Assembly (NCBI GenBank): GCA_005772955.1
Contig: SXID01000235.1
Coordinates: 1 to 35,705 of the forward strand
Direction of reading: 5' to 3'
Length of the DNA stretch: 35,705 bases
DNA from: Planctomycetia bacterium
GTDB taxonomy: Bacteria > Planctomycetota > Planctomycetia > Gemmatales > Gemmataceae
Shown: positions 3,749 through 19,852 of the stretch, in pieces
Layout of the letters: every line of letters starts with the position of its first letter
Position numbering within the stretch: the first letter of the stretch is position 1
Translations under genes and position numbers: made by a program
The notes under the pieces: model-generated
Told to the model about the DNA's origin: nothing
Database searches by the model: none
The model's input: the letters and a program-made list of their open reading frames with translations, nothing else

Positions 3749-4156
3749 TTACGGTGGTTGCTCATCTTCGATCACATGCACCATCTCGCCGCCGGCCTCG
3801 CTGACCTTCGCAATGAGGTCTTCAAATGTGGCGGCTAGCGTGTCCTTGTGAATCTTCAGTAAAACGGTGCGCTCGCCTGGTGGGGTATCTCCCAGTTCCG
3901 ACGCGACGAGCGAGGTCAGGTTCATCAACCCCACCTGTTTGCCGTTCAAATATACCTTATTGTCTATGTCCACCGTAAGAGAAACTCTCGCTTTTACGAC
4001 CGGTTTGGCGCCCGCGCCGTGTGCCGGTTCCCACTTGATCTGACTTTCGTCCTGCATCTTGGCGAGGATCAGGAAGAACAGGACGAGGTTGAAGACGATG
4101 TCGGCCATCCCCACGAATGGCGGAACGATCTCCAGGTTTCGCCGCTTGAACTTCAT
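3749..4156 (-). CDS. ExbD/TolR family protein (second copy)
   Basis: This 135-residue protein has a short cytoplasmic N-terminus, one membrane span (about residues 15-33) and a periplasmic domain, the standard ExbD/TolR layout. Asp19 at the start of the span matches the aspartate that carries protons in ExbD and TolR. In that family the protein forms the stator and peptidoglycan-facing part of a proton-driven motor with ExbB/TolQ. The tail (about residues 95-130, VLLKIHKDTLAATFEDLI) fits the end of the ExbD fold. It is the second of two dissimilar ExbD genes after an ExbB gene. A stable palindrome separates the two ExbD genes, so their expression could differ. Whether the two form heteromers is inference. 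Confidence 0.88.
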   Translation of the reverse strand: MKFKRRNLEIVPPFVGMADIVFNLVLFFLILAKMQDESQIKWEPAHGAGAKPVVKARVSLTVDIDNKVYLNGKQVGLMNLTSLVASELGDTPPGERTVLLKIHKDTLAATFEDLIAKVSEAGGEMVHVIEDEQPP

Positions 4157-4194
4157 CGCTGATCCTTGAAGAACCTGGCCCCAGTCCCGTTTTC

Positions 4195-4235
4195 GCCGCT
4201 TGCGGCGTAGCGTTCCCCGCCACGCCGCAAGCGGC
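4195..4235. repeat. Intergenic palindrome between the two ExbD genes
   Basis: A perfect 14-bp inverted repeat with a 13-base spacer fills most of the 88-base gap between the two ExbD genes. The arm contains GCCGCTTGCGGC, which is almost the same as the core of the palindrome at 27288-27338 (GCCGCTCGCGGC). It may be a REP-like dispersed element or an mRNA-processing or stability hairpin within the operon. It lacks a T-run on the minus strand. Confidence 0.6.
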
Positions 4236-4244
4236 TCAGATAAC

Positions 4245-4685
4245 TCACTTCACCACAACGTCCTTATCGACTTCCACTTGAAGCGCCACCACCCCGCCGG
4301 CCTCCTCAATCGCGCCCGTGACGCGAATCCACATGCTGTATGGCGTGTCCTTCGCGCTCTTGACCTCGACAATCTTGTCCTCGGGGCGAGTCTTGTTCGC
4401 GAGCAGCGCCGCGAGTTTGGCCTTTAACTGCGGCAGTGGCACGTCCGCCCCGTTCAGCGACACCGCGGTCCGCGTGATCGACACCTCGACGTTCTGCGGT
4501 TTCACTTCGTTCGGTTTGTTCTCGCTTTGGGTGCTTGGCACCTGTTGCGGCTTGCCCTTCTGTTCTTGCGCGCTCGACGCGCACACCACGAAGAAGATCA
4601 ACAGGTTGAAGGCGAGGTCGGTGAGGAGGTTCATTACCCAGGCCGCGTGTGCTCCCCCTTTGCCCCCCGTGGGTCCGGCAGCCAT
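4245..4685 (-). CDS. ExbD/TolR family protein (first copy)
   Basis: This 146-residue protein has one membrane span (about residues 17-36) with Asp23 at the position of the proton-carrying aspartate of ExbD/TolR, then a Gln/Lys-rich linker and a periplasmic domain. The ATG overlaps the TGA of the upstream ExbB gene by one base (TGATG), a strong sign of translational coupling and of a shared complex. The periplasmic end (KDTPYSMWIRVTGAIEEAGG) fits the family. It is clearly different in sequence from the second ExbD copy, so it is not a recent duplicate. Role: with ExbB it is expected to convert proton flow into movement of a periplasmic partner. The partner here is not identified. Confidence 0.9.
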   Translation of the reverse strand: MAAGPTGGKGGAHAAWVMNLLTDLAFNLLIFFVVCASSAQEQKGKPQQVPSTQSENKPNEVKPQNVEVSITRTAVSLNGADVPLPQLKAKLAALLANKTRPEDKIVEVKSAKDTPYSMWIRVTGAIEEAGGVVALQVEVDKDVVVK

Positions 4686-5494
4686 CAGGTCGCTCCCTCT
4701 TTGGCGAGAGCCGGACTCGAGCTACCGTTGGGTGCGGGCGTTGCGTTTGCGATTGGCGTCGCGACCGTGGCGTCTGAAACCGGGGCCAACTGCAATATCA
4801 GCGCCTCCACTAACGCGGTCGCCGTTTCTTCCGCTTCCAGAATGTGCGTGCTCACGATCGAGGTGAAGTAGTTGAAGAACATGTACGCGGGGATGCCGAC
4901 CATCAGCCCCCAGACCGTGACGATGAGCTTCACCTTGATGCCCGCGGCGGCCTCTTTGATGATGTTGGCTCCGGGAGGCATCTCGGTGATGCCCTGAAAC
5001 ATCAGTACCATCCCGACCACCGTACCGAGCGAGCCAAGCATGGGCGCGACAGTCGCGATAGTGGACAGAATCGGCAGGTTCTTCTCCAGCGCCGCGCTGA
5101 TGTGGGAACCGTAATCCTCCATCGCCTTGACCACTTGCTCTTCGACTTTCGCGGGGTCGTAGTTCAGTTTGCGGAGCAACTTGTACCGGTGGATGCCGAT
5201 CGCAAGGATCGCGGGGACCGGGCCGTGCGACCGCGCACACAGCGCAACGGCTTCCTCAATCTTGTCTTGGTGGAGCAGATCGAGAACGTTGCGCCGCAGC
5301 GCCTCGGCGTCGATGGCGATGAGCCGTAACGCGCGATACCGCTCGATGACGACGCCCGTAGCGATGACCGCCAGCAGGAGGATCGGCCACATGAACGGGC
5401 CGCCAGCGATCATGTAACCCATCGCGCCGGACTGCCACCACTCATTGGCGGCGGGGGCGGCGGTCTGGGCGGCTTCTGCGAACAACGTCAGCAT
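4685..5494 (-). CDS. MotA/TolQ/ExbB proton channel family protein
   Basis: This 269-residue inner-membrane protein has three predicted spans, at about residues 27-50, 143-170 and 188-212, as in ExbB and TolQ. The family signature is clear in the second span (TIATVAPMLGSLGTVVGMVLMFQG) and third span (VKLIVTVWGLMVGIPAYMFFNYF). A large cytoplasmic loop lies between spans 1 and 2. An N-terminal segment of about 25 residues (rich in Ala) precedes the first span. ExbB-type pentamers surround an ExbD dimer and pass protons. The gene follows the giant TPR gene after a 125-base gap with a long hairpin, and is coupled to the first ExbD gene. No TonB, TolA or TolB homologue is visible in the window. Confidence 0.93.
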   Translation of the reverse strand: MLTLFAEAAQTAAPAANEWWQSGAMGYMIAGGPFMWPILLLAVIATGVVIERYRALRLIAIDAEALRRNVLDLLHQDKIEEAVALCARSHGPVPAILAIGIHRYKLLRKLNYDPAKVEEQVVKAMEDYGSHISAALEKNLPILSTIATVAPMLGSLGTVVGMVLMFQGITEMPPGANIIKEAAAGIKVKLIVTVWGLMVGIPAYMFFNYFTSIVSTHILEAEETATALVEALILQLAPVSDATVATPIANATPAPNGSSSPALAKEGAT

Positions 5495-5539
5495 GTCGTT
5501 TGGTGGTGAGTAGGTGGCGATTCGGTCTTGGTGGGTGGT

Positions 5540-5593
5540 TAGCGTAGACCCCGTAGAGGTCGTGGATTTGCGACCTCTTCGAGGTCTACGCTA
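5540..5593. repeat. Long intergenic hairpin upstream of the ExbB gene
   Basis: The outer arms TAGCGTAGACC and GGTCTACGCTA pair perfectly over 11 bp. An inner 8-bp stem (AGAGGTCG with CGACCTCT) carries an 8-base loop, and a 4-base partly mismatched joint links the two stems. The element sits between the end of the giant TPR gene and the start of the ExbB gene, all on the minus strand. It could be an attenuator, an RNA-processing site or a REP-like element. There is no T-run after it, so a simple intrinsic terminator is less likely. Confidence 0.6.
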
Positions 5594-5619
5594 GTCTTGG
5601 CCTGCTCGTTAAACACAAC

Positions 5620-8600
5620 TCAATTCTTGTCCAGTCCGCTTGAAGCCTCTTCAAACTGGCGGAGCATTTCGGGCAACGCCAATCGGCCGCGGGCGTACTT
5701 CGCCGCTTCCGTCGCGGGGTAATCCCAGCGGCACTTGTTGTAGCTCTCGAACGCCTTCTTCATGTTGCTCGCGGTGCGGTAACTCTCGCCCGCCCAGAAC
5801 ATCGCATCGGCCGCGAGCGCGTCCTCGCGGAACGTCTTCACGAACTTGTCGAACGTGTCGGCGGCCTTCGCGTACTGCTTGTCCTTGTAGTAACACTGGC
5901 CGACGCGGAACGCCATCTTCGGCGACCACTTGTGGCCCTCGAACTTCTCCAAGAATTTCTCGCCCACCTGCGCGGCGACCTTGAAGTTCTCTGCCTTGTA
6001 GAAGTGCTCGCTGATGCGCACCATCACGTTCGCGATCAGCGGGTTCTTCGGGTACGTCGCAGCCAGCGTGACGTAAGCCTCCAGCGCCTGATTGAACTCG
6101 CCAGCGTCCTCATAGCACTGCGCGAGTTTGAATTGCGCATCAGGGGCGAGGGCGTGGTCCGGGTACTGCTTCACGATCGTCTGATAGGCCTGTGCCGCTT
6201 CACCGTACTGCTTGAGTTCCTGTGCGAACTGGCCGAGCAAGTACGACACGCGTGGCGTGTACTTCGGGTTCGGGTAGTCCTCAATGACCTCGCGCAGCAC
6301 GCGCCGTCCGGCTTCCAGCGCAGCCTTGGCATCACTTTCGCGGCCCAGAGTCTTGTGGCTCTTGAACAGCTCGAAGTGGCTCTCCGCGATGTGGAACTGC
6401 GTCTCCACCGCGAGCGCCTCGTCGCTGAACACCTTGCTGAACGCTTGAAGTTTGCCGTCGGTGCCGATGACCACTGCAACCGTGGCCGTCGATTCGAGCT
6501 TCCCATCGGCGGTGCTCGCGGCGCGATCGTCGGTGTACGCGACTTCGAGTGTGTCGCCGAAGTAGCACTCGATCTCTGGCGCGTCTTGCTTCAAGTTGCC
6601 CGGTGTCGGCTTCTCGACCGGCTTGAGTAGCACCGACCCGGTGAAGGTGCCGCTGTGTGCGCTCGTCTCGACCAACTCGACCAACTCGTCCTCGCCGCGC
6701 TTCGTCTTGACACGGACCTTCACCTTATCGCGGTCCGGGGTGCGGTCGCAGTCGAAGTCCACGACCTTGAGGAACAACCGCTCGCCGACGTGAACCGCGG
6801 TCAGATCCCGCTGGTACTCGGAGTCAGTGCAAGTCAGTTTGCCGTCAGTTACCAACCGGCCGTTCGCGGTGAGCGCGGTCGCGGGTCCGGCGGGGCGGCG
6901 CTCGTCCTTGTAGAGGACCTCGATCACGTCCGACCCGTTGAGGTTCAGCACGCGGGTGACGAGTGTCCTGTCCGGCCCCTTGCCTTCCTCGTTCATTTCT
7001 TCCTTCGGAATTACTGGCCCGCCGACCAGGCCGCGCGGCATCGTCGCCGTGAGCGGCACCAGCGAAGCGCTGTCCTTGCTGCCGAGTTGAAGGATCACTT
7101 GACCTGTGAAACGGCCTTCGAGGAGTGCGCTACCGGCTTGCGTGGCGGCCCCGGTAACGGTGCCCGCAAGTTGGCTGTCGTCGAGAACGCATTCGACCTC
7201 GACCTCGGCCCCGCTGGTTGTCTTCAGTTTCACGATCACTTTGCTGCGGCTGTCTTTCGCCGCGTCGCGGTCGATGACTTCGACAGTGAAGGGCGCCTCG
7301 AACGCCACACCCGCGACAAACTTCGGATCGGCGTTCGGCGTCCCGGGGAGGTATCGAATGATCGGCGTGGGATCGACTCCCGGGCCGCCGGGCACTTGCA
7401 CCGGGCGCGTGGCGCGGGTCTCGATCACCCGGACGGTAGCGACGGTCGGCTCGTTCACGTACACGACCGATTCGCGAACGGCAGCATGACCGGGGACCGT
7501 ATTCTGCTGATCGACGTAGCGGATGAAGACCCGGTCGCCGGGCTTCACCACAATCTTGCCTTCGGCCGGGACCGGGGCCGTGTCCACTTCCTTCGTGAAC
7601 ACGCCGCTGTTCTCGGCCGTCTCGGTCGCTTCGAGGTCGATCGGCGGGCCGTTGTTCACGGACACTTGAACTTTAATCTTGTCGGGCGCGGCGGTCGCGT
7701 CCTGGTCAAAGTCGGTGACTTCGATGACGATCCGCTCGCCGGGGTCGATGCGGAGCAGTTGCTTGCGGATCGTGGACACCGCGCCGTTCGGACTCTTCAC
7801 GAAGTCGTAGGCGATGGGCACGATCGTGCCGTTGTGGTAGGTCGCGGTGAGTTTGCCCGTGAGCAGGCGCGCCCCGCCGGAGGTGTTGACCTCGTCGATG
7901 TACGTCGCAGTGACCACGTCGCCACCGGCGATTTCCAACACGTCGTTGGTCGCGAGCGAGAGCAGGTCCGTCTCCGTGGGGATATGGAGAACGTTCTTCG
8001 CGCCATCGCGTATCTCGACATGGTTAATGGCGACTGCTTCGCCGCGATACTCGTGAATCACGGTGCGGAGGTGCCGCACGTTGAGCGCCGAGAACGTGAA
8101 GTCCCACGACGTACCTTCTTTGTCCGCGACCGCTTCGCCCAGCGCGCGGGGGGTGCCCGCGAGCTTCGCTTCCGGCCGGTCGAGGTCGAAATCGGACGCG
8201 CGGAACGCGACCGTGGCGACCTGCTCCGTGGTCGCGTCACCGGTCGCCCAGCGTGCTTCGAGCGTGGTCGTGTTCACGCTCGCTGCCGCGAATATCGTGA
8301 CCGTGTGCGTGCCCGCGTCGAGGTGCATATCGACGTGGCGCCCGCCGGGGCCAACCGGCATTTCGAGCCGCCCGTCCACCATCACTGCTGTCCTGCTGCC
8401 CAGCACTTCGAAACGGGCCGCACCGGTCTTCGGCTGCACGATCTTGCCGTGCCACACGATCGCGGTCGCTTTCTTGGCCGGATCCGTCGGCTGACGCGTC
8501 CAGAACAGATCCGCAGCCTTGCCTTCGGCCGTGGGCTTCACGTTCTTCGTGAGTGCGACGACCTGATCCCACGTTGTGTACCCGGAGCCGTCGGTGCCCT

Positions 8601-11600
8601 CGAAGATACGCGTCGTCATCGGCCCGGTCTCACCCGCGACCGGCACTCCTTTCGCGTCCGGGTGCGTGCTGCCAAGCCGGAACCAGAGGCGACCATCGTC
8701 GCTACCTTCGAGCGTCATGCGGATTGGCGCGTTGCGCTGCGGGTCCGGCGTCCAGACCGTGACGCGATCGGTCCGCTTCAGGTCTTTCATGTCAATGCTG
8801 AGAACCTTCGGCGTGACGCCGTCCGGTTCGCTCAACCACGTCGTCTTCTTGTCCTTGTCGATCGCCATGAGCGGGCTGTGGTCGATCGCGGTGTTAGTCG
8901 CGAGCGCGCCGGCTGGGAGTTCGCCGCTCTTCGCTGTTCCCTCAAAGACGCCAGTGTGCGGTCCGGTTTCGGTCAGTACCACGCTCACCGCGTCGCCGCT
9001 GGCCGCGACGAGCTTCACCGTGATCTTGTCTGGTTCGTTGCTGATGTCGCGGTCGGCGTCCTTCACGCGAAGGTAAATCAAGTTGCCTGGCTTGATCTGA
9101 TCCTTCGGACGGTCCAGCCCCTTGCGTAAGTCGACCTTGTCGCCCATCGCTTCGCGTTCGAGCTTCTTGCCGAAGGTCTCGTCGTCCTCGTCGATGATCT
9201 TGCCAGACGCCACATCGAGTTTCGCGTCACCCGCGATGCGGATCTCGGCGTCGGGCAGCGGGGCGTCCTTGAACTCCTTCTTGAACTCCGGCGGGTAATC
9301 GACGCGGATGACGTCCTTACCCGTGAGTTGCAGAATGCGGTCGTTCTTAGCAGCGGAGCCGAGGCGCGTTTCGAGGTCCGCGCGGAACAGGCCCTTGCCG
9401 GCGCCGCCGGACGTGAGGTACACCGTCTCGACATCGCCGCCCGGTTCGGTGGTCACAAGTACCGGGATGCGCGCGTGCCCGCGGCTCACGCCCAGGTCGC
9501 TGTCCTGCACCACGATCGAGAGCGGTTCGCCGGGCGTGTGGAATCGCTTGCTGGCGCGCCCGAGCCGACCGACAGTGCGGAGCAGTTCGAGCTGATCCAC
9601 GTAGCGCTGTTCGGCCCCGTACACCTCGGACAGGTTGTACAGCGTCTGGTTCGCGAGTTCGATGTTCGGCACACGTTCCAGCACGCTGCGGAAGATGGCC
9701 CTGGCCCCGTCGCGGTCGCCGCGCCGACTCGCCAGCACGCCGCGAAGGAACTCGGCGCGGATCACGACATCGCGTTCGCGGCTCCCGGCGAGGCGCTCGA
9801 ACACTTGCTCCGCCTGGTCGTACACCTTCTGTTCCATGAACGTTTCGCCAGTGCCGAAGTCGGCTTCGACCGCTTGCGGGGTCTTCGCGTAACGGTTCAG
9901 GAGCGTGGTGAACTCGGCCCGCGCGAGATCGTAGCGTTTGGCCTTGAAGTAGTTCCGGCCCAGGAGCAGTTGGATGCGGGCCTTCTCCACGTCATCGACC
10001 GATTTCACGTCGGCGTTCTTGATGAGCCACGCACGAAGCGTGTCTTCGACGCGAGTGTGGTTCACGTCTCCACCGGCCGCGATGTGGTTCTCGCAGACGA
10101 ACACGATCAGATCGACGGGAACATCGGTTCGGTGTTCGTCGAACAACTTCTGGTTGGCGAGATACGTCTCGAACGCGAGTTTCTGATCGCCGAGTCGCAG
10201 TTGTAGTGACGCCGCGAGGAGAGGGGCGATCGGTGACTTCTCGTCGATGGCCGCACCGCCGGCGGCGCCGAGCCGCGTGTACGCCTGCGTGAGGAGATCG
10301 CGCCCCGTTTTTCGGCGGGCTTCGTCCAAGCCGTAGAAGTGGCCGAGCATCCCGCTCGTCATTGTAGCAGCGGCCATGTAGTCTTTGCGGCCCATCGCGG
10401 CTTGCACGTACGGCGCGAGGTAGTCGAAGTCGGTCGCGTCGCCGTAGCTGTAAATGGTCGCGTCCGAGAGTGCGAGGAGACGCTTCATCGGCGGCATCGT
10501 TGCGGCGACATCTTCGAGTTCAAGCAGCGCCACCTGAGCGACCACCGAGGACCGGTTGACGTTCAGGTCGCGGACCAGCGTGAAGAGTGCCCGCTTGTCG
10601 GCCAGCGTGATGACCACCGGCTTTGGATCGACCTTCGGGCCAGCCTTCGGATCGACGGCAGGGGGCACCCAGGCGCGGTACGTCCCGACCCAGTTGTAGA
10701 GCGCGTTCCACTCCTGATCAGGGCTTTGCGCGCCGAAGGCCCGGTCGCGGACCTTGTCGGCCGCGGGAAGCAGCAACTTCGCCGCGCCCGCGATGTCGTT
10801 CGCTTTGATAAGGTGTTCCGCCCGCATCACGGCGAGGCTGAAGTGCCAGCCGCTGTCCTTCGCCACGAGCGTGTCGAGGAACTTGGGCTTCTCCGCGTCC
10901 GGGAGCAGCGCGACCAACCGCGAAGCGCTCTGCACGTAGTCCGCTGTGTCGGGGTTGCCGGTGAGGGCGCGTTCCCAACATTCCTTCGCTTCGGCCTTCA
11001 TGCCCAGCGCGGTGAGCGTGTCGCCCATCGCGGACGCGGAGCCGTTGTCGTACCCGAACTTGTCGAACATCTTCTTCGTCCAGGCCCATGCCTGTGTTGC
11101 GACCGCGTTGTCCTTGAAGTGACCCGCGACGACGAGGAGCCGGCGGGCGGTGTCGGTGTTCGTGTGGGTCGGTTCGAGTTTGAGCAGGATTGGCGCGGCG
11201 TCGCGGAACGATTCCGGTTTGGTGTAATCGGTGGCGTGGTTCAGGTACGCGACGGCCGCGTCGTACGACTGCGGCAATCGCGTCACCCACGCCTTCGCCG
11301 CGTCGATGCTCTTCGCGGGCGTCGGCGAGTAATGACGCATGAAGTACTGCTGCTGGTAGAGCAAGTCGTTCGCGACCGCGTCGGGGTACGCAGTGACGCG
11401 CGCCGGATCAACAATCAACTTCGCACGTGTTGCCGCGGACTGCGGACTCCACACGTTCGGTGCGACCGCGGCTTCGTACGCGTTCCACTCTGCGTTCACC
11501 GGCTCCTTGTTGGACGCGGTGAGCGCGACCTGCGCGGCCTTGACCCGCTTGGCGAGATCCTTGTTCGCGAGTTTCGCTTGCGCCCAGTTGGCGAGCGTTG

Positions 11601-13047
11601 CGCGATAGGTCGTGATCCACGGGAACTTGCGCCAGGCCTCGACGATGCGGGCTACTTCCGCATCGAACTCGGCGTCATCGGCGGCAGAGTCGAGGAGCCA
11701 GTTCACGGCCCCGCCGGTGTGCCCATCGTTCGATGGGAACTGGTACGCGACCTCGCGCGCCACGACCTTTGCCGCGGGGATGTTCGCAACGCGGTCGCGG
11801 AGCAACTCGAGTGCAAGGGAGTATCGCAGAACGACCGCGTTCGCGGGGGTACTCTTGGCGATCGCAGCACGAAGATTGGCTTCGGCCGCGGCGAGCCGGT
11901 TTGCCTTCACGGTCTTGTCCACATCCGCGCCGAACAGTTGCACATAAGCGCTCGACGCGTTGTGTGAACGCGCGTCAAACGGCAGCACGCTTGCGAGAAT
12001 TTGCTCTGCCTTCGCCGCGTCCTTGTTGGTGAGGTACACGCTCGCGAGCCGGACCTGAGCCGCGAACCGGTCCGGACGCGTGGGGTACTTCGCGAGGTAG
12101 TCGTTGACAGTTGGCTCGAACTCGGCCGGCTTCGGGTTCGTCTGGAACAACTCCTCAATTAGCCGCATGTGTAGGTCGGGGCGCGCCGGCGTGTTCGGCA
12201 CCGCGATGGCCTTGCGCCAGCTCTCGACGGCGTTCACGCGCTGCCCGAGTCGGCTGTAGTTCTCCGCGACACGTGCGTGCAGGTATTGCAGGTAGTACGG
12301 GGTGGCCGGTGGGCTTTTGGCGAGGAGTTTCGTGGCAACGGCGTTGGCCTTCGCCCACTGACTCTGCCGCTCGTGGGCATCGACGGCGCTCCAACCTGCA
12401 CTTGTTGCGGGTCCGCCAGCGGGGAGTTTGTCGAGCATCTCCTCGCCGAGAGCCGCGGCCTTGTTCAGCGAGTCGGCGTTGTTGATCGAGAAGTAAAGCC
12501 CGATGGCGTCACGGCCGGACCGCTGGCCTTCCGGCATGGCGCCGAGCCGCTTCCAGTGGGCTTCCTGCATGAGCGCGGTCGCGGCGGTATCGTTCGTTTT
12601 GCGCAAGAGTCGCGCCAGCCATCGCTCGATCTCGATGCACGCGGGGTCGGCTGGGTGGCGTGTCAGGAACTGCCGCCCTGTGGCGATGAGTTCCTTGTTG
12701 CGACCCGTAGCGCGGAGGCCGTCGAGCAACTTCAGCATCGCGTCCTTGTGCCGCGTGTGCGTAGTATGCACCGCGACGAACGACTGCCCCGTGCGGACCA
12801 GCCCGAACGGCCGCCCATTCTCGTGGTACAGGTCGATCAACTTCAGTTGGGCTTCAGCGCCTTCCTTGCTCGCGCTGTTCAGTTTGGCGAGTTGGGTTTC
12901 GAGCGCGGCGGCTTGCTTACCGATGGCGTCGATGTCACCTTCGGGGACGGCAGCCTTGTCTGCGGGCTTGGGTGGCTGGTGAGCGGCGAGGCCAACGCCG
13001 AGTAGGGCGAGGAACAGGCAGGCGAAGGATAGCGTGCGAGTGAACAT
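5620..13047 (-). CDS. Giant exported TPR/beta-repeat protein
   Basis: The product has about 2,475 residues. An in-frame ATG at 13092 exists, but it lies inside a palindromic repeat. The ATG at 13047 starts directly with a signal peptide (TRTLSFACLFLALLGVGLAAH), so it is chosen. Layout: about residues 30-1230, TPR-like helical repeats; then at least four beta-type repeats near 1330-1375, 1775-1820, 1920-1985 and 2090-2140. Each repeat has a D-x-D start, a DKxxVxV strand and usually a TETxxxTGxF-like end. About 1380-1465 resembles an F5/8 type C (discoidin) fold and 1530-1615 a PA14-like module. The C-terminal 250 residues are canonical TPRs like those of YbgF/BamD-type proteins. It is probably a periplasmic or surface scaffold. 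It lies just upstream of the ExbB-ExbD-ExbD genes, suggesting it is a partner of that motor. Domain borders are estimates made by eye. Confidence 0.88.
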   Translation of the reverse strand: MFTRTLSFACLFLALLGVGLAAHQPPKPADKAAVPEGDIDAIGKQAAALETQLAKLNSASKEGAEAQLKLIDLYHENGRPFGLVRTGQSFVAVHTTHTRHKDAMLKLLDGLRATGRNKELIATGRQFLTRHPADPACIEIERWLARLLRKTNDTAATALMQEAHWKRLGAMPEGQRSGRDAIGLYFSINNADSLNKAAALGEEMLDKLPAGGPATSAGWSAVDAHERQSQWAKANAVATKLLAKSPPATPYYLQYLHARVAENYSRLGQRVNAVESWRKAIAVPNTPARPDLHMRLIEELFQTNPKPAEFEPTVNDYLAKYPTRPDRFAAQVRLASVYLTNKDAAKAEQILASVLPFDARSHNASSAYVQLFGADVDKTVKANRLAAAEANLRAAIAKSTPANAVVLRYSLALELLRDRVANIPAAKVVAREVAYQFPSNDGHTGGAVNWLLDSAADDAEFDAEVARIVEAWRKFPWITTYRATLANWAQAKLANKDLAKRVKAAQVALTASNKEPVNAEWNAYEAAVAPNVWSPQSAATRAKLIVDPARVTAYPDAVANDLLYQQQYFMRHYSPTPAKSIDAAKAWVTRLPQSYDAAVAYLNHATDYTKPESFRDAAPILLKLEPTHTNTDTARRLLVVAGHFKDNAVATQAWAWTKKMFDKFGYDNGSASAMGDTLTALGMKAEAKECWERALTGNPDTADYVQSASRLVALLPDAEKPKFLDTLVAKDSGWHFSLAVMRAEHLIKANDIAGAAKLLLPAADKVRDRAFGAQSPDQEWNALYNWVGTYRAWVPPAVDPKAGPKVDPKPVVITLADKRALFTLVRDLNVNRSSVVAQVALLELEDVAATMPPMKRLLALSDATIYSYGDATDFDYLAPYVQAAMGRKDYMAAATMTSGMLGHFYGLDEARRKTGRDLLTQAYTRLGAAGGAAIDEKSPIAPLLAASLQLRLGDQKLAFETYLANQKLFDEHRTDVPVDLIVFVCENHIAAGGDVNHTRVEDTLRAWLIKNADVKSVDDVEKARIQLLLGRNYFKAKRYDLARAEFTTLLNRYAKTPQAVEADFGTGETFMEQKVYDQAEQVFERLAGSRERDVVIRAEFLRGVLASRRGDRDGARAIFRSVLERVPNIELANQTLYNLSEVYGAEQRYVDQLELLRTVGRLGRASKRFHTPGEPLSIVVQDSDLGVSRGHARIPVLVTTEPGGDVETVYLTSGGAGKGLFRADLETRLGSAAKNDRILQLTGKDVIRVDYPPEFKKEFKDAPLPDAEIRIAGDAKLDVASGKIIDEDDETFGKKLEREAMGDKVDLRKGLDRPKDQIKPGNLIYLRVKDADRDISNEPDKITVKLVAASGDAVSVVLTETGPHTGVFEGTAKSGELPAGALATNTAIDHSPLMAIDKDKKTTWLSEPDGVTPKVLSIDMKDLKRTDRVTVWTPDPQRNAPIRMTLEGSDDGRLWFRLGSTHPDAKGVPVAGETGPMTTRIFEGTDGSGYTTWDQVVALTKNVKPTAEGKAADLFWTRQPTDPAKKATAIVWHGKIVQPKTGAARFEVLGSRTAVMVDGRLEMPVGPGGRHVDMHLDAGTHTVTIFAAASVNTTTLEARWATGDATTEQVATVAFRASDFDLDRPEAKLAGTPRALGEAVADKEGTSWDFTFSALNVRHLRTVIHEYRGEAVAINHVEIRDGAKNVLHIPTETDLLSLATNDVLEIAGGDVVTATYIDEVNTSGGARLLTGKLTATYHNGTIVPIAYDFVKSPNGAVSTIRKQLLRIDPGERIVIEVTDFDQDATAAPDKIKVQVSVNNGPPIDLEATETAENSGVFTKEVDTAPVPAEGKIVVKPGDRVFIRYVDQQNTVPGHAAVRESVVYVNEPTVATVRVIETRATRPVQVPGGPGVDPTPIIRYLPGTPNADPKFVAGVAFEAPFTVEVIDRDAAKDSRSKVIVKLKTTSGAEVEVECVLDDSQLAGTVTGAATQAGSALLEGRFTGQVILQLGSKDSASLVPLTATMPRGLVGGPVIPKEEMNEEGKGPDRTLVTRVLNLNGSDVIEVLYKDERRPAGPATALTANGRLVTDGKLTCTDSEYQRDLTAVHVGERLFLKVVDFDCDRTPDRDKVKVRVKTKRGEDELVELVETSAHSGTFTGSVLLKPVEKPTPGNLKQDAPEIECYFGDTLEVAYTDDRAASTADGKLESTATVAVVIGTDGKLQAFSKVFSDEALAVETQFHIAESHFELFKSHKTLGRESDAKAALEAGRRVLREVIEDYPNPKYTPRVSYLLGQFAQELKQYGEAAQAYQTIVKQYPDHALAPDAQFKLAQCYEDAGEFNQALEAYVTLAATYPKNPLIANVMVRISEHFYKAENFKVAAQVGEKFLEKFEGHKWSPKMAFRVGQCYYKDKQYAKAADTFDKFVKTFREDALAADAMFWAGESYRTASNMKKAFESYNKCRWDYPATEAAKYARGRLALPEMLRQFEEASSGLDKN

Positions 13048-13086
13048 ATCGTGTTGCCGTGTGAGGTCGTGGTTCTTGAGAGTAGT

Positions 13087-13234
13087 CATCACGCTCCGCG
13101 TGATGTCCGCTGGCGTATTGTGTCATCGAGTGAGCGACCGCTCTACCTCGCGTCATCACGCTCCGCGTGATGACCGCTGCACATCGCGGAACGCGATCCG
13201 CGTTTCTGTTGCCGACATCACGCTCCGCGTGATG
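13087..13234. repeat. Three copies of a perfect 19-base palindrome
   Basis: The 19-mer CATCACGCTCCGCGTGATG (8-bp stem, 3-base loop) occurs exactly at 13087-13105, 13154-13172 and 13216-13234. In the second copy the stem extends to 10 bp. The first two copies are followed by similar bases (TGATG, one base, CCGCTG). A further small palindrome, TCGCGGAACGCGA, lies between the second and third copies. The array fills most of the 195-base gap between two minus-strand TPR genes. It resembles REP/BIME-type arrays and could act on mRNA stability or attenuation between the two cistrons. Confidence 0.85.
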
Positions 13235-13242: not shown

Positions 13243-15726
13243 TTAGTTCCCTGCCTTGCGGAGCGCTTCGGAGATCTTCTTGGCGTCGGGAGCGAGCGGG
13301 CTTTCGGGGAAGTCCGCGATCATCTGGTCGAACTGCTTCCGCGCCTCGGTCTTCTTGTCTAGGCGGTACAGACAGCGCCCGTAGTTGAACAGGATCACGT
13401 CGAGGAACTTGGCGTCGGGGTGGGTGCGGAGAACCGTCTCGAATACGTCGATGGCGCGGGCGTAGTCTTTCTGCACGTAGTAGTAGTTCGCCATCTTCGC
13501 GACCGCTTCGCCCACGCGCCCGCTGTCGGGGTGCTTGTCGAATACCTTCTTGTACTCTTGGAACGACTGGTCGAAAAGTTGCGCTGCGCGGGCACCCTCA
13601 ACTTCCTTCGCCATCTCCTCGTAGCACTCCGCGATGCCGAACTGGGCCTCACCGCGAAGGGGACTCTTGTCAAGCCGCAACACGCTGGTGTAGATGCCGA
13701 TCGCACGCTGCATTTGCTTTTGTTTGCGCGCGACTTGTGCGAGCGAGATGAGTGCCGCGTCCACGAACTCGCTGTTCGGGAACTCCTTCTGCAACCGCTG
13801 GCTCATCGCGGCGGCGAGGTCGAGGTTGTCCATCTCAAAGTAGATCTTCCAGAGCTGGACGTAAGTCTCTTCGAGCGTGCGCCCGCCGAGCTTCGCGGCC
13901 TCGGCGCTGATCTCCTCGCACAGTTTCATCGCCTGTTCGTACTTCGTGTCGGCGTGCTGCTTGAGGCCGAACTCCTTGTAGCGGTTGCCGATGTTGGTGA
14001 GCGCGCTCGCGGTCTTCAGTTGTGTCTTGACTCGCAACTCCTGATCGTTGATCTGCGTTTGCGAGACGCGCACGCTGCCGAGGCTGCCTTCCACGACGCG
14101 CGCTTTGAAGACTACCGTGCGGGCTTCGGCGGTCGAGTTCTTCGTGTCGCTGTAGGTGAGAACGATCAGGTCGTTCGGCTGCGCCTGAAGAACCAGATCG
14201 CCGAGTTTCACCACCTCCGACTTCTCCAGCGACACGACCGCCCGGAATACGCCCGAGTGGATTGTGCCGTCGTCTTCCGGCGGCTTCGGCGGCTCCACCA
14301 CGGGTGGCGGCTCTTTCTTTGGCTCTTCCTTCTTTGGATCTTCCTTCTTTGGATCTTCCTTCTTTGGCTCTTCCTTCTTCGGCTCGCTGTCTTTCTTGGG
14401 CTCGCCGTCTTTCTTGGGTTCTTCGACCGGCGGAATGATGAGCGGGATGTTCTCCGGTGCCGCGCGAACGATCTTCGCCTCGGTGAGAATGGCATCCACC
14501 TTGTCGATCTTCTTGAAGCGATCGAGCTTGTTCGGGTCGGACTTGGTTGGCATCGGCGGCATCCCGCCCGGTCCAGCCTCCGCGGTGATTTCTTCGGGCG
14601 TCTTCTCGCGGTAAACCTCGATTGTGGCCTTCAACACGTCGGCGCCGTCGGTGAGGTCGAAGTCGGCATCAACAACCTGAAGGTGAATCCCACGACCGAG
14701 AACTACGCCCTGCAGCGTTTCGGAATACGCGCCGTCCACGACAGTGGCCGTCGCAGTGCCCACGACCGAGATCTCTTTGATGATGAGGTTCTCTTTGCCA
14801 CCGGCGGCGGTGTGCATGTCGCGGTAGGTGATCTTGACTTTGTCGCCACCGCGAACTTCAAGCCGGTTGTTGCCTGGTTTCGGCTTGCCGAGAGCCGTGG
14901 TGATGGTCCCGATGACGACGCGAACGTTCCTGCCGATCGGGACGCATTCAACCATTTCAAAGTCGCCGCTGGTCGCCTCGACCTTCACGCTCAGGGTTTT
15001 ACCGGGTTCGAGCGCGGCAAGGTCGGCGTCCTCGATCCGTACGAACAACCGCTTCCCGGCTTCCAAGATTTCGGGCACGGGCTTCATGCCGTCGGGGGTC
15101 GACGCATCCGGTGGGGGAAGGGCAGTGCCAACGCGCTCCAGCGCGGCAATCGCCCGGCTATAGTGGCCCTGCTGAAAGTGGCCCAGACCGATGTAGTAGT
15201 AGGCCTGGTTCACCTGCGGGCTAACCGGGTACTTCTCGATCACGTCGCGCATGTACTTGAAGCACTTGCCATAGTTGCGGCCCTCGAAGTAGCACACACC
15301 CACTTTGAGGGTCGCTTCGGAGCGCGATTCCTCGCTGGGGTTGTCGTCGGCTGCGGCGGACTCGAAGAACGTGCGAGCGCGGTCAAATGCGCGGTCTTTC
15401 GTGAGGAGATGGTTGCCGAGTTTGAGATACGCGTCGAACCGGACCTTGCTGCGCGGATACCGTTCGATCACCGAGAGCCACACTTCAACGGCCTTCGCCG
15501 GTTCGCCGGCTTCAAGACGGGCGTCTCCGGCTTCGAGGAGTTTCCGCGCGGTGCGGTCCTCAACGATGGACCCGCGTTCCGGGGCGCCCTTGTCTTTGTC
15601 TTTATCCTTGGCGTCTTGCGCGTCGGGGACGCGAGGTGAACCGTGGCTTTCGACGAAGCTGAGTGCGACCCCGCCCAGAACGAGAGCAGGCAGGAGGAGA
15701 CGCAAACGAAGAACGGCGATGTTCAT
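13243..15726 (-). CDS. Exported TPR/beta-repeat protein
   Basis: This 827-residue protein has an N-terminal signal segment (about residues 5-25). TPR repeats follow at about 55-215, then beta-type segments at about 225-375 that start with D-x-D and resemble those of the giant neighbour. A Lys/Glu/Pro-rich linker lies at about 433-472, with another beta segment near 485-560 containing HSGVFRAVV, a degenerate form of the neighbour's repeat end. A second TPR block runs from about 575 to the end. The TPR-beta-TPR order is the same as in the giant protein, so the two look like distant paralogues or partners. It is the first gene of the minus-strand run, beginning in the divergent control region at 15727-16055. 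Function is not known; a periplasmic scaffold role is inferred. Confidence 0.88.
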   Translation of the reverse strand: MNIAVLRLRLLLPALVLGGVALSFVESHGSPRVPDAQDAKDKDKDKGAPERGSIVEDRTARKLLEAGDARLEAGEPAKAVEVWLSVIERYPRSKVRFDAYLKLGNHLLTKDRAFDRARTFFESAAADDNPSEESRSEATLKVGVCYFEGRNYGKCFKYMRDVIEKYPVSPQVNQAYYYIGLGHFQQGHYSRAIAALERVGTALPPPDASTPDGMKPVPEILEAGKRLFVRIEDADLAALEPGKTLSVKVEATSGDFEMVECVPIGRNVRVVIGTITTALGKPKPGNNRLEVRGGDKVKITYRDMHTAAGGKENLIIKEISVVGTATATVVDGAYSETLQGVVLGRGIHLQVVDADFDLTDGADVLKATIEVYREKTPEEITAEAGPGGMPPMPTKSDPNKLDRFKKIDKVDAILTEAKIVRAAPENIPLIIPPVEEPKKDGEPKKDSEPKKEEPKKEDPKKEDPKKEEPKKEPPPVVEPPKPPEDDGTIHSGVFRAVVSLEKSEVVKLGDLVLQAQPNDLIVLTYSDTKNSTAEARTVVFKARVVEGSLGSVRVSQTQINDQELRVKTQLKTASALTNIGNRYKEFGLKQHADTKYEQAMKLCEEISAEAAKLGGRTLEETYVQLWKIYFEMDNLDLAAAMSQRLQKEFPNSEFVDAALISLAQVARKQKQMQRAIGIYTSVLRLDKSPLRGEAQFGIAECYEEMAKEVEGARAAQLFDQSFQEYKKVFDKHPDSGRVGEAVAKMANYYYVQKDYARAIDVFETVLRTHPDAKFLDVILFNYGRCLYRLDKKTEARKQFDQMIADFPESPLAPDAKKISEALRKAGN
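14310..14426 (-). repeat. 15-base tandem repeats coding an EPKK linker
   Basis: Inside the 827-residue TPR gene, repeats of about 15 bases (units like GGATCTTCCTTCTTT on the plus strand) encode a highly charged run of EPKKE/EDPKK units of roughly 40 residues. Some neighbouring units are identical at DNA level, so the tract probably changes length by slippage. At protein level it is probably a flexible or extended spacer between two beta domains, similar in spirit to the Lys-Pro spacer of TonB. Confidence 0.85.
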
Positions 15727-16055: not shown

Positions 16056-16544
16056 ATGACCCAAACCCACTCAAACGGCCAACCCCAGAGAGGGCAACTC
16101 TTGACCACGCACGCGGAACCGCAGGCAGTCACCGACTCGCCACACCCAACCCGCACGCGACCACCACGAGACACGCTCGGACATTCCGCACGCAGCGACC
16201 TTTTTTTGGCATCGCTAGTGGCGGGGTTCGGCTTCGCCGTGCTGTTCGTGGGCTTGACGTTCGGTCCGTATTACTGGAACAAGTCGCAGGGTACGACGAA
16301 GGCGACGCCAGCCCCAGCGGAGAAGTCTGACGCTCCTCCCGCGAGTCTGCCGGTGGCACCGGCGCCCACGTCCCCGGACCCAGGCGCCGCAAAACTCCCA
16401 CCGGGCGGTTCGCCGGTCGTGGGCAAGGTGCCCGGTAAGGGTGACATTCTCGACAAACTCGGCGAGAGCGGGACGAAGGCCGCGCCCGCGAAGGTGAACC
16501 CGCTCGACAAGAAGGACGACGACATCCTTAAGGACATCAAGTAA
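16056..16544 (+). CDS. One-pass membrane protein with proline-rich periplasmic tail
   Basis: This protein of about 162 residues matches no family I recognise. An in-frame ATG at 16011 would add 15 residues; the ATG at 16056 is preferred because it sits better behind the possible promoter, but no strong Shine-Dalgarno sequence decides it. About 47 polar residues come first, then one membrane span (about residues 48-70, LASLVAGFGFAVLFVGLTF). A tail of about 90 residues follows, rich in Pro and Ala and ending with many Asp and Lys residues. The layout recalls TonB/TolA-type energy transducers, but the span lacks the TonB Ser-His pair and there is no TonB C-terminal domain. It is first in the plus-strand set, upstream of the DUF4159 gene. 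Confidence 0.72.
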   Translation: MTQTHSNGQPQRGQLLTTHAEPQAVTDSPHPTRTRPPRDTLGHSARSDLFLASLVAGFGFAVLFVGLTFGPYYWNKSQGTTKATPAPAEKSDAPPASLPVAPAPTSPDPGAAKLPPGGSPVVGKVPGKGDILDKLGESGTKAAPAKVNPLDKKDDDILKDIK

Positions 16545-16592: not shown

Positions 16593-18119
16593 GTGCGCAG
16601 TTTCCACCTGACTCCGTCTCGGGCCGCCCTTCTGAGCGGTCTGTTTGTCGCCCTGTGGGGCGGCCTCGTCCTGGTGTTTCCAGATAAGCCGTCCGTTGCG
16701 CTGTGGGACGGTCTCGTACTTGTGCTTCCAGAAAAGCAGTTTGTCGCATTCATCGGCTGGGTGGTGCTGTACCTGATCGGGTTTGCGTGGGGAATCTACC
16801 TACTCGAACGCGCCGCGAAGCGGATTGAATCGTCCGCTGTTCCGACCAGAGACAACGCGCGACCGCAGATTTCGGTGAGTGGCGAAGCCGTCGGCAACCG
16901 GCGTGGCGCGTGGAACCCGTTCGATCCCGACGCGCGATACTATGGCCCCGCACTTGGTATCGTCTGCTTTTTCGTGTGCATGTCGCTTTTCGCCGCGGCG
17001 GTGGTTTCCGAGTTCCCTAACCTCGGTTCTGAATCGGCGGTGTTCAAACTTTGTGCGGCACTCCAGCCCGTGAAGTTCACGGCCCTCATCCTCGCGACTG
17101 CGGGTCTGGCAACGGCCGTGGCGCGGAGCAAGCGAGTCCGTCAGTCGCTCTCGATGATCGCCGCGTATTCGCTCCTCTTCACACTGGTGTACTTCCTCGC
17201 GCACCGGAGGTCTGGTACCAACGAGGAAGAATACGCGCTGCCTGCGGGCGGCGGCAACGACTCGCCACAGGCGATGTCGGTGAAGGTCCAGAAGGTTGTG
17301 CGCAAGCGGTACGTCATCAACCCCTACAGTTCCATCACGTTCGCGGCCCCGCCGCCAATCGAGAACATCGACGTGAAACTGACCGACGAGACGTCCAACC
17401 GGTATCAGGTCGGCATGGGCGATGGCGGTCTTGGGCAGGGCGACGGCGAAGGCGGCGGGTTCGGCAGCGGCAAGGACGGCGGCAAGATCCGCTTCATCCG
17501 ACTGCGTCACTCCGACAAGTCGTGGGATAAGAACTTCGGCATCGGTGGCGACCGCAATCTGCTCGCGGAACTGGTCGTTCGCTTTCCGAAGATGAACGGA
17601 AAAGTGGCCGACGAAACCGAGGCGATAGACTTCGTTACGCTCGGCAACTACAAGCCGAAGGCCGCGCCGCCCGTGGTGTACGTCGGCGGTGCGGGCACGT
17701 TCGCGCCGTCGGCCACCGACAAGCGAGTACTGAAGCAGTACATCACTGAGCGGCACGGCATGATCCTTGGGGACACGCTTGGCGGTGGCGCGTTCCACAG
17801 CAACTTCATCGCTGTGATGAACGAGATCACGGGCACAACGCGAGTTGAGATTCCCCGCGACGACCCCATCCACAAGCGGCCCTACGAGATTCCCCAATTG
17901 CCGTTCGTTGTTGCGCACGGCGGTTCGACCCCATACGGTTGGAAGCTCGACGGGCGCTGGGTGGTGTACCACCACCCCGGCGCGCTCAGCGACGCGTGGC
18001 GCGACGACCGCGCCGGCATCAAGAAGGTCATCGCCGACCACTGTTACTTGCTCGGCATCAATATTATCTCTTACGCTCACCGGGAGCACGACCAATGGCG
18101 CCGTTCGCAACAACCCTGA
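16593..18119 (+). CDS. Multi-pass membrane protein with C-terminal DUF4159 domain
   Basis: This 508-residue protein begins with GTG. Five hydrophobic segments are visible at about residues 11-30, 50-70, 122-142, 160-176 and 188-205. A glycine-rich stretch follows near 275-295, then a DUF4159 domain from about 298 to 500. DUF4159 features include FIRLRHSDKSWD at its start and a family-like GRWVVYHHPGALSDAWRD segment late in it. DUF4159 is related to glutamine-amidotransferase-like folds and occurs mostly in planctomycetes and other bacteria near membrane-complex genes; its role is unknown. The first membrane segment contains a 16-residue tandem duplication. The 3' end overlaps the next gene's likely ATG by 25 bases. 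Confidence 0.88.
   Translation: MRSFHLTPSRAALLSGLFVALWGGLVLVFPDKPSVALWDGLVLVLPEKQFVAFIGWVVLYLIGFAWGIYLLERAAKRIESSAVPTRDNARPQISVSGEAVGNRRGAWNPFDPDARYYGPALGIVCFFVCMSLFAAAVVSEFPNLGSESAVFKLCAALQPVKFTALILATAGLATAVARSKRVRQSLSMIAAYSLLFTLVYFLAHRRSGTNEEEYALPAGGGNDSPQAMSVKVQKVVRKRYVINPYSSITFAAPPPIENIDVKLTDETSNRYQVGMGDGGLGQGDGEGGGFGSGKDGGKIRFIRLRHSDKSWDKNFGIGGDRNLLAELVVRFPKMNGKVADETEAIDFVTLGNYKPKAAPPVVYVGGAGTFAPSATDKRVLKQYITERHGMILGDTLGGGAFHSNFIAVMNEITGTTRVEIPRDDPIHKRPYEIPQLPFVVAHGGSTPYGWKLDGRWVVYHHPGALSDAWRDDRAGIKKVIADHCYLLGINIISYAHREHDQWRRSQQP
16644..16739 (+). repeat. 48-base in-frame tandem duplication
   Basis: Two adjacent 48-base units code FVALWGGLVLVFPDKP and SVALWDGLVLVLPEKQ, about 77% identical at DNA level by hand count; the next bases restart with FVAF. 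The duplication lies in the first membrane segment of the DUF4159 protein and so lengthens or doubles this segment. Confidence 0.85.
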
Positions 18120-19852
18120 GTGCGGAAGAACCCCTCCCCCCAACCCCCTCCCCTAAGAAGGGAGGGGGAGCCTGCATTACACCCCCTCCCTTCTTAGAGG
18201 AGGGGGTTGGGGGGAGGGGTCGTCTTTTCTTCCGCATCGCGCTCGTCGTGCTCGCCCTCGGCTTCTGCGCAACGCTCGCGCCGGCTGGACCGCTTGACGA
18301 GATGTCGGTCGAGCGCTGGGCGAAGCTCAAGGAAGCGGAACGGTTCCAACTGAACGCCGCCGAACGACTCTTCCGCGAGAGCCAGTGGAAGGCCGCGGCC
18401 GACGAGTACGAGAAGTTCCTCAAGCTCTACGAGCGGAGCGAGGGGGCCGCGTTCGCCCAACTCAAATGGTCGCACTGCCAGGTGAACCTGCGGAGGCAGA
18501 ACGCCGCCATCAAGGACGGCTACCAGTCGCTGCTCGACTACTACCCGGAATCCCCGGAAGCCCCGATCGCGGGGTTGCTAATCGGGCGCACGTATCGCGA
18601 CATCGGCGACGCGAAGCCCGCGAAGAAAGCCTACGCGAAGGTGATCGCGGCGCACCCCAAACACTTCGCCGCGGTGATGTCACGCCTGGACCTGGTCGAA
18701 CTTGCGGCCAAGGAGAACGACACTGAGACTTACGCGCGACTACTGCGCGAACTCACATACGACGTTGAGCGTAAGGGCGCGACGACTGCGCCGTGCGTTA
18801 CGGCGTCGCAGCAATACGCACGGCTCACGTTCCGCGCGGGCAACTTCGAGGAAGGGCTGAAGGCGCTTGCCACCAGTTGTTCAGAGGCACAGTTGCCTCA
18901 CCACCTCATGCACCCCAGTTGGGGCGCACTGCCGACCATCGTGGGCGAACTCACTGGGTCGAAGGACGAACCGACGAAGAAGAACGGCGAGAAACTCACG
19001 GACGCTGGCGCGGCGTGGTTCAAGACGCAAGTGACGGCCAACCTGAAAGACCCGAAGACCAAGCCGCAGGCACAGGCGGCCTGGTACGACATCGCCGAGA
19101 TTCGCCGGCACGCGGGCCAGACGGACAAGCAGAAGGCGGTGTACGAGGACATCATCGCCACGCTCGGGCCGGACGACACCACGCTCGGGTACCTCGCACG
19201 CTGGTACAAGGTCCACAAGCAACCGGAACTGGCGCGCACGACCTACGGCAGATTCAAGGACGTGGCCGAGGGACAGGGTCAGATCGCGCTAAGTTACCGC
19301 GAAGAGACCCCACCGCAGACTGACAAGGCGGTCGCGATATACCGGCAACTCGCGGCTGATGTGAAGGTGGCTCCGCGGTGGCTCGGCGAAGCGGCAATGG
19401 CGTACCGCCGCGGCGGCAAGCCCGATCTCGCCATAGCCGTGTACCGCGAACTGATCACCTCCGACGCGAAGGGCGCCGACGCTTACGCCATCGAGATCGC
19501 CGAAACGCTGTACCAGGCGCAGCGGTGGAAGGAGTGCATCGCCGCGTACCGGGGCACCAACAACTTCCCGACGAACTACCTGCACATGGCGACCGCGAAC
19601 CGGCGCCTCAAGCAGTACGACGAGGCCATCGCGCTCTACCGACAAGTGATCGCGGCTTCCCCGGCAAACGCGTCTTCCGCGCTGCTTCAGATTGCATACA
19701 CGCAGGAAGAAGCAGGCAAGAAGGAAGACGCGATCAAAACGCTGAAGCAGATTTGTGACAAGCACCCAAAGACATCTGAGGGTAGCACGGCCCACACCCG
19801 GCTGAACGACGTGTATAAGATTCCCATCACGCTCGGCGGGGCCAAGGATTGA
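18095..19852 (+). CDS. Exported TPR protein
   Basis: The protein has about 585 residues if it starts at ATG 18095, which overlaps the end of the DUF4159 gene. Residues about 12-42 are encoded by a large inverted repeat (18131-18219). Only after it comes the signal peptide (FRIALVVLALGFCATLAPAGP, about residues 46-66), an unusual position. No ATG lies between the repeat and the signal, so either translation runs through the hairpin or a rare start is used. The remainder is TPR repeats (for example residues about 85-210 and 400-575), with motifs like YRELITSDAKGADAYAIEIAE and YRQVIAASPANASSALLQIAY, as in tol-pal-type YbgF proteins. It probably acts in the periplasm with the other TPR proteins of this locus. 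Confidence 0.82.
   Translation: MAPFATTLSAEEPLPPTPSPKKGGGACITPPPFLEEGVGGRGRLFFRIALVVLALGFCATLAPAGPLDEMSVERWAKLKEAERFQLNAAERLFRESQWKAAADEYEKFLKLYERSEGAAFAQLKWSHCQVNLRRQNAAIKDGYQSLLDYYPESPEAPIAGLLIGRTYRDIGDAKPAKKAYAKVIAAHPKHFAAVMSRLDLVELAAKENDTETYARLLRELTYDVERKGATTAPCVTASQQYARLTFRAGNFEEGLKALATSCSEAQLPHHLMHPSWGALPTIVGELTGSKDEPTKKNGEKLTDAGAAWFKTQVTANLKDPKTKPQAQAAWYDIAEIRRHAGQTDKQKAVYEDIIATLGPDDTTLGYLARWYKVHKQPELARTTYGRFKDVAEGQGQIALSYREETPPQTDKAVAIYRQLAADVKVAPRWLGEAAMAYRRGGKPDLAIAVYRELITSDAKGADAYAIEIAETLYQAQRWKECIAAYRGTNNFPTNYLHMATANRRLKQYDEAIALYRQVIAASPANASSALLQIAYTQEEAGKKEDAIKTLKQICDKHPKTSEGSTAHTRLNDVYKIPITLGGAKD
18131..18219. repeat. 38-bp near-perfect inverted repeat inside a coding region
   Basis: Arms at 18131-18168 and 18182-18219 are complementary at 37 of 38 positions, with a 13-base loop. 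The arms are built of C-runs and G-runs. Outside them TGCGGAAGAA (18121-18130) and TTCTTCCGCA (18227-18236) are also inverted copies. It resembles MITE-like or REP-like elements. It begins 12 bases after the DUF4159 stop codon and is open in the frame of the TPR gene. Confidence 0.9.

Follow-up and report, generated by a model that had tools for sequence, protein, structure and literature searches.

The stretch of DNA analyzed here (the window, 35,705 nucleotides; contig SXID01000235.1 of assembly GCA_005772955.1, forward strand) comes from a Planctomycetia bacterium of the Gemmataceae, whose genome amounts to 5.9 Mb in 278 contigs and is rated 100% complete. It contains a block of genes, grouped around an ExbB-type motor gene, that appears to encode a proton-driven machine of the cell envelope. 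An earlier note on this DNA had described an ExbB gene coupled to one ExbD gene and followed by a second, unlike ExbD; two TPR-beta-TPR proteins of 2,475 and 827 residues; and, divergent to them, a proline-rich one-pass protein, a DUF4159 membrane protein, and a third TPR protein. Pfam matches and an open reading frame check of the window recovered all of these genes where the note had put them: exbB and exbD1 overlap by one base (4685), ExbD2 is indeed a second family member, both long TPR proteins lie on the minus strand, and the trio lies on the plus strand. The listed genes were right, but the list was too short, as the DUF1501 and PSCyt2/PSD1 genes that it omitted belong to the block as well. 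The features are as follows.

188..1456, minus strand: DUF1501 protein (PF07394, E = 3.9e-103), a block member with a twin-arginine-type signal by eye
1539..3713, minus strand: PSCyt2/PSD1 (DUF1549/DUF1553) protein with CxxCH (PF07583/PF07587)
3749..4156, minus strand: ExbD2 (PF02472, E = 4e-15), membrane Asp kept in relatives
4245..4685, minus strand: ExbD1 (PF02472, E = 4.8e-15), membrane Asp kept in relatives
4685..5494, minus strand: ExbB/TolQ-type motor ring protein (PF01618, E = 2.3e-23)
5620..13092, minus strand: big, giant exported TPR-beta-TPR protein with TPR families in both end regions
6307..9591, minus strand: beta-sandwich array in the center of big (AlphaFold model, Foldseek)
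8668..8883, minus strand: discoidin (F5/8 type C) match in big, residues 1404-1475
13243..15726, minus strand: tpr2, exported TPR-beta-TPR protein, 827 residues (scan of the window proteins)
16056..16544, plus strand: pro, one-pass proline-rich protein, putative headless force transducer (sequence, alignment)
16200..16277, plus strand: membrane helix of pro, without His (by eye; alignment of 32 relatives)
16443..16541, plus strand: conserved C-terminal tail of pro (same alignment)
16593..18119, plus strand: DUF4159 membrane protein (PF13709, E = 1.3e-17)
about 18095..19852, plus strand: tpr3, third exported TPR protein (open frame 17939-19852)

The frame of big encodes 2,490 residues from a GTG codon, or 2,475 from the ATG at codon 16, and the sequences at the start of all three TPR proteins resemble signal peptides. 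The 5' open frame of tpr3 also holds, at 18130-18220, a near-perfect palindrome (39-nucleotide arms, 13-nucleotide loop) that precedes the signal-peptide-like segment and looks like a mobile repeat element.

Conservation of the block

About ten genes make up this conserved unit, which scattered planctomycetes and verrucomicrobia have inherited as a whole. The co-conservation that the earlier note had asked after is there: related genomes keep the block, and its gene order is repeated in a second family and a second phylum. Its typical order in relatives from the Planctomycetota and Verrucomicrobiota is tpr2-big-exbB-exbD1-exbD2-pro-DUF4159-tpr3, and in most of those read it forms a single co-directional block with the DUF1501 and PSCyt2/PSD1 genes in front. 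Among the ten relatives whose neighborhoods were examined (G126, G114, and G145 end at contig borders), two from a second family, G140 and G057, carry PSD1-DUF1501-tpr2-big-exbB-exbD1-exbD2-pro-DUF4159-tpr3 in one line, and a contig of G120 runs from tpr2 through pro and DUF4159 into tpr3, with the DUF1501 gene on a separate contig. The Gemmataceae group (window, G050, G086, and G125) has the PSD1-DUF1501 pair downstream of exbD2. The divergent layout, true of the window, is among the loci read a trait of this group only; pro-DUF4159-tpr3 is divergent in the window and G086 and stands apart, yet is retained, in G125 (contig C3 versus C10) and G050 (C3 versus C127).

A wider scan gave 169 tpr2 relatives, and the best 80 of the 169 loci were examined; as recorded by name, these belong to Gemmataceae, including the isolate Zavarzinella formosa, to other Planctomycetota, and to Verrucomicrobiota and Kiritimatiellia. 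Taking as denominators the loci with room around tpr2 for the neighbor in question, big adjoins tpr2 in 68 of 69, exbB lies downstream in 55 of 56, and DUF1501 and PSD1 lie upstream in 63 of 74 and 56 of 66, respectively, the misses for these last two being the Gemmataceae-group loci and L042. Likewise, exbB is followed by both ExbD genes in 40 of 47 loci. Further downstream, the order pro, DUF4159, tpr3 was found in 19 loci, contig ends aside (L123 without tpr3, L125 without pro), with tpr3 after DUF4159 in 18 of the 19 and the remaining one ending at a contig border. The DUF4159 subfamily was present in all 20 genomes chosen for this search (19 strong matches; G427 weak, E = 3e-12). Further block genes were ruled out, no other neighbor family being found in more than 10 of 99 loci. 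Ten of these 99 loci (for example L114, 1-681, plus strand) encode a small protein that has paired CC..C motifs and is of heavy-metal-associated type by eye; its nearest block gene is PSD1, on the opposite strand, in 9 of the 10.

Co-occurrence in the class follows the same lines. Matches to the beta middle of big were found in 11 of 148 class genomes, and the DUF4159 subfamily profile and the DUF1501 subfamily picked out the identical 11, sets that rest on thresholds of 1e-10, 1e-20, and 1e-140 among the matches listed at first look. The sets are identical even where the modules are unlinked (G125, G050). DUF1501 candidates numbered at least 32 in every genome listed at first look, yet the subfamily is restricted to the 11. 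The chance figure for equal sets is 7.8e-17, which is not a true probability, as these are related genomes from 7 genera and 3 families. In a tree of tpr2 (85 rows, quick method), the Gemmataceae group is not broken up, and 10 rows of Verrucomicrobiota and Kiritimatiellia cluster as one amid rows named Phycisphaeraceae; transfer between phyla is therefore possible. One row of the Gemmataceae group, L039, is labelled Bacteroidales, and some record names look misbinned.

Motor proteins and a candidate transducer

The ExbB profile matches solved TolQ/ExbB structures (E = 1.2e-16), and the best NCBIfam match of the protein is TolQ, at 83.1 bits and below the cut-off of 221. A pattern search recovered the membrane Asp in 47 of 48 ExbD1 proteins, the other ending at a contig border, and in 42 of 43 ExbD2 proteins, where the missed row (L074) shows GDIIF and so has the Asp too. 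We considered and rejected a conserved Glu of the third ExbB helix (or the loss of this Glu) as a mark of the family, as the residue varies between relatives.

No Pfam family matches pro, in which one membrane helix is seen by eye. In the window's branch, the protein retains a cytosolic segment (consensus ELREFLxxLKGRSPQEMLG in the alignment of 32 relatives), the membrane helix, a linker, and a tail (consensus LDKLGIGETKxADPKxNPLDxxxDDLLDG), and 28 of 38 rows, including those truncated at locus ends, have NPL, NPF, or DPF within their last 40 residues. We read pro as a putative TonB-type transducer in which the conserved tail replaces the globular head, and the tail probably engages the TPR scaffolds. 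A short linear segment of TonB, the D-box, can act as a handle for ExbD (PMC10907165; here and below, statements on published work refer to the available portions of the papers cited).

TPR, DUF4159, DUF1501, and PSD1 proteins

The seven orthologues of big are 46-78% identical, and tpr2 is 53-95% identical in 10 relatives. The center of big was modelled by AlphaFold as a chain of beta-sandwiches (predicted local distance difference test score 79), which Foldseek matches best to an S-layer protein from an archaeon (E = 6.7e-24), with a low template modeling score, indicating a common arrangement only. A discoidin match is present in 7 of 8 big members at E <= 1, the best at 3.3e-7. The TPR proteins all score above the YbgF/CpoB cut-off of NCBIfam, tpr3 barely so (90.8 versus 90.1 bits); CpoB is a partner of TolA in E. 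coli.

The model of the DUF4159 domain, built from seven sequences and unreliable over its first 92 residues, matches PDB 4i66 (Z 22.4, root-mean-square deviation 2.1, 185 aligned), giving it a glutaminase/ThuA-like fold. In the 7-row alignment no Cys is invariant, and in a 6-row alignment one is, near the C terminus. The conserved catalytic Cys expected of a class I glutamine amidotransferase is missing from these alignments despite such a fold. After its last hydrophobic segment, the DUF4159 protein carries the conserved stretch VKVQKVIRKKYVINP. Among the remaining block members, the PSD1 proteins have CxxCHxHPF in 57 of 58 copies, and 52 of 63 DUF1501 proteins show a motif of twin-arginine-like type. 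Carbohydrate-binding modules are encoded by some PSCyt genes (PMC5615132), and a redox function has been suggested for PSD1/PSC2 proteins in Rhodopirellula (PMC2754498).

A distant sister branch

In a sample of the phylum, tpr2 relatives were detected at E <= 1e-30 in 18 of 294 genomes; three of these 18 (G000, which is the window's genome, G057, and G354) have strong full-length relatives, and the others are more distant. All three TPR genes plus exbB are present in 7 of 11 distant loci, six of them ordered tpr3-tpr2-big-exbB and L130 differently; in L134 the three TPR genes are present and exbB lies in the adjoining stretch. Downstream, exbD2 is followed by a one-pass gene and then DUF4159 in all seven distant loci fetched. 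In 7 of 7 loci (including L143), the one-pass protein of this branch bears a TonB/TolA-like His within its membrane helix. These proteins also have an arm that is charged and rich in proline and alanine, and they end in a short tail that by eye is similar in 5 of 7; no Pfam head domain was found in the protein of L142, the one tested. The role of TonB that the earlier note had offered to the proline-rich protein gains support from this sister block, though the window's own pro is without this His. A discoidin-type match was found in one distant-branch protein (E about 0.005-0.007). As for other genes of these loci, the gene after DUF4159 in L141, L142, L144, L146, and L147 encodes a membrane protein of about 400-500 residues, the one scanned giving a weak FAM176-like Pfam match only, and L145 has two tandem DUF4159 frames (4391-5995 and 6028-7623).

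TonB and other motors in the genome

The earlier note had seen no TonB homologue at the locus and had asked whether a standard TonB gene lies elsewhere; none was found genome-wide. TonB_C (PF03544) gave no match at E <= 1 and the receptor barrel of TonB-dependent systems (PF00593) none at E <= 0.1, the control exceeding the cut-off in 3 of 14 genomes in either case. TonB_2 (PF13103) reached 13.6 bits against a cut-off of 22, a weak test, as its control exceeded the cut-off in 1 of 14 genomes. Given the lack of TonB_C, of TonB_2 over the cut-off, and of the receptor barrel, the reading of the block as a standard Ton system was rejected. TolB, Pal, and TolA had no family match among 20 window proteins, TolB and Pal not having been looked for in the remainder of the genome.

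Five more genes of the ExbB/MotA type are present in the genome. On contig C138 (L148), an ExbB-type gene accompanies two ExbD genes and a one-pass protein (5831-7450, minus strand) with the TonB-like helix SGAIHVAVIAV; another part of this protein resembles squalene-hopene cyclase and may be one more type of transducer head. Contig C101 has an ExbB-type gene with two long ExbD genes. On C164 (L152), a vWA protein with an Asp-bearing helix (9077-10705, plus strand) lies near an ExbB-like gene, and it resembles the second vWA family described in PMC12204202. The remaining two are on C194, in a cluster that looks flagellar by eye, and on C262.

Discussion

We propose, with a probability of roughly 0.5 for the explanation in full, that the block encodes a proton-driven cell-envelope machine. 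ExbB and the ExbD1/ExbD2 pair would form a 5:2 rotary motor, on which pro would dock via its conserved cytosolic and membrane segment. The proline/alanine-rich arm of pro would span the periplasm, and its C-terminal tail, in place of the TonB/TolA head, would be the hook that pulls a TPR scaffold (tpr2, tpr3, or big). The DUF4159 protein would serve as a membrane-anchored partner of the tether; big, as a TPR-Ig-discoidin rod, would transmit the movement to a surface or periplasmic glycan, and the DUF1501 and PSD1 proteins would act on that glycan. Part of this is on firmer ground: a motor with a headless tether is probable, and we favor it because of the conserved order, the co-occurrence, the His of the sister block, the ExbD Asp, the match of ExbB to solved TolQ/ExbB, the YbgF/CpoB scores of the TPR proteins, and the absence of TonB_C and of a receptor. 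Glycan handling as the output is our leading guess, and a tentative one, because of the discoidin match and the precedents of Agl-Nfs, Fibrobacter, and PSCyt. It is also conceivable, though we would not presume it, that the block stands for a class of its own among proton-driven trans-envelope machines. The tail hook of a headless transducer would here clip into TPR solenoids and pull a 2,500-residue glycan-gripping TPR-Ig-discoidin rod, and the class would exist in two deeply separated branches in Planctomycetota, one shared with Verrucomicrobiota.

Several observations weigh against this proposal. No outer-membrane barrel or lipoprotein was recognized in the block, and the outer end of the force path is therefore missing. 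In the window's own pro the cytosolic motif is degenerate; the TonB/TolA membrane His is absent from it and from the aligned membrane segments of close relatives; in L143 the one-pass gene has its helix and tail in different frames; and the contact between tail and TPR proteins is a guess. The discoidin match of the window's own big is weak (E = 0.075), and F5/8 type C is counted as a protein-protein interaction domain, not as carbohydrate binding, in PMC5615132, which makes a glycan slightly less likely. The unit also has its gaps. The order is rotated in G116 (second family) and in L052; Zavarzinella and G050 hold the pro-DUF4159-tpr3 module elsewhere in the genome; no ExbD gene follows within about 1.1 kb of exbB in L058, L063, L069, L073, and L076, and a single one does in L057 and L062. 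L042 has tpr2 at high similarity and nothing else of the block for about 10 kb to either side; in the distant branch, tpr2 stands by itself in 20 kb of L128, and L129 and L131 are cut short. Finally, the distribution of the block is patchy, at 11 of 148 class genomes, and it is therefore not a housekeeping system.

One could instead suppose that the DUF4159 protein, and not pro, is the force transducer, with the DUF4159 domain as its head and pro as an assembly subunit only, an arrangement we consider rather unlikely. Its layout, in which the last membrane helix, a conserved basic stretch, and a Gly-rich linker carry the globular domain, would suit such a role; VKVQKVIRKKYVINP stands where TonB has its D-box (PMC10907165), the gene directly follows pro behind the motor genes in both branches, and it occurs in the identical 11 of 148 genomes. 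However, the protein has several membrane helices by eye, unlike TonB, TolA, and the published vWA transducers, VKVQKVIRKKYVINP is no exact fit to the D-box pattern, the fold is glutaminase/ThuA-like, and both the one-pass topology and the sister-branch membrane His belong to pro.

The proposed motor and tether also invite comparison with the Agl-Glt gliding machinery of Myxococcus xanthus, which combines one protein of ExbB type and two of ExbD type with a Pro-rich membrane partner. Of its four TPR proteins, three carry signal peptides, and the fourth, GltI, with 4,132 residues, lacks one (PMC3169522). The block has one TolQ-type and two TolR-type proteins, a Pro-rich partner, and three exported TPR proteins including a giant one, so that, compared by parts list, Agl-Glt may be regarded as a close functional parallel. 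The motor might then move TPR complexes along the envelope for gliding or surface transport, with the discoidin-bearing big carrying a surface polymer; Agl-Glt/Nfs work on slime and spore-coat polysaccharide, and Agl-Nfs moves glycan strands on the spore (PMC3858216). We hold such an Agl-Glt-like system to be unlikely. GltG has FHA and TonB domains, whereas no TonB_C protein is found in the window's genome; barrels are part of the Myxococcus system and none was recognized in the block; the GltE model scores 25.8 bits, on big, against a cut-off of 225; and GltI, unlike big, has no predicted signal peptide (PMC3169522).

A Tol-Pal-like system that joins outer membrane and wall in budding or division, with CpoB-like TPR proteins, would account for the YbgF/CpoB scores of the TPR proteins and for TolQ as the best, if sub-threshold (83.1 versus 221 bits), NCBIfam match of ExbB. 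It appears very unlikely in view of the restriction to 11 of 148 class genomes, whereas envelope maintenance would be expected to be general, and of the lack of any TolB, Pal, or TolA match among the 20 window proteins scanned. That the genes are chance or loose neighbors without a common machine, as might be thought from the abundance of TPR and DUF1501 families in these genomes (first-look counts), the split set in some Gemmataceae, the rearrangements in G116 and L052, and the solitary tpr2 of L042, is scarcely credible given an order shared across two phyla and identical genome sets for three components.

Returning to the motor with a headless tether, the published clusters with the same gene order are those of the Planctomycetes-Verrucomicrobia-Chlamydiae group, in which vWA-headed transducers stand beside TPR, tolQ, and two tolR genes and whose function is not known (PMC12204202, 2025). 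Their order, TPR-tolQ-tolR-tolR'-transducer, is shared with the relatives of the block, whereas in the window the transducer gene is divergent. Their transducer ends in a vWA domain, many with an SHLS motif, whereas that of the block ends in a short conserved tail; a transducer of the published vWA type was rejected for the block, neither the pro nor the DUF4159 proteins having a vWA match. The block also adds DUF4159 and a TPR gene after the transducer, the giant discoidin-bearing TPR protein, DUF1501, and PSD1. TonB-ExbB-ExbD and TolQ-TolR-TolA resemble the block in their motor proteins, a one-pass Pro-rich partner, and the membrane His (in the partner of the sister branch); the block differs in having two unlike ExbD proteins, no TonB_C head, and no TonB-dependent receptor in the genome. 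In Fibrobacter succinogenes, the TPR and ExbB/ExbD/TonB genes FSU_2397-2403 are raised on cellulose (PMC6851124); compared by gene content alone, they share with the block TPR proteins near one ExbB and two ExbD genes and differ in a TonB-domain protein. Hoch_4089 of Haliangium ochraceum (PDB 4i66) shares the fold of the DUF4159 domain and was compared by fold alone, and ExbD genes of Poribacteria have been described in another context (PMC5087111). No paper mentioning the DUF4159 family was found in the literature searched, nor was any description of the block in the available portions of the papers among the matches listed. Judged by its predicted parts, the block is distinct from each published relative compared, but the kind of machine that it would form is already known.

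Planctomycetes are noted for their unusual envelopes and for taking up big polymers, and despite this the window's genome is without a recognizable TonB or TonB-dependent receptor. A motor block of the kind proposed would place DUF1501, PSD1, and DUF4159 proteins, whose functions are hardly described if at all, in a common setting and give them a role that can be tested. The isolate Zavarzinella formosa carries both modules, making the idea testable in culture. Outside the block, the window has a frame of 1,362 residues (29218-33306, minus strand) with LVIVD repeats and a cytochrome c3-like stretch.

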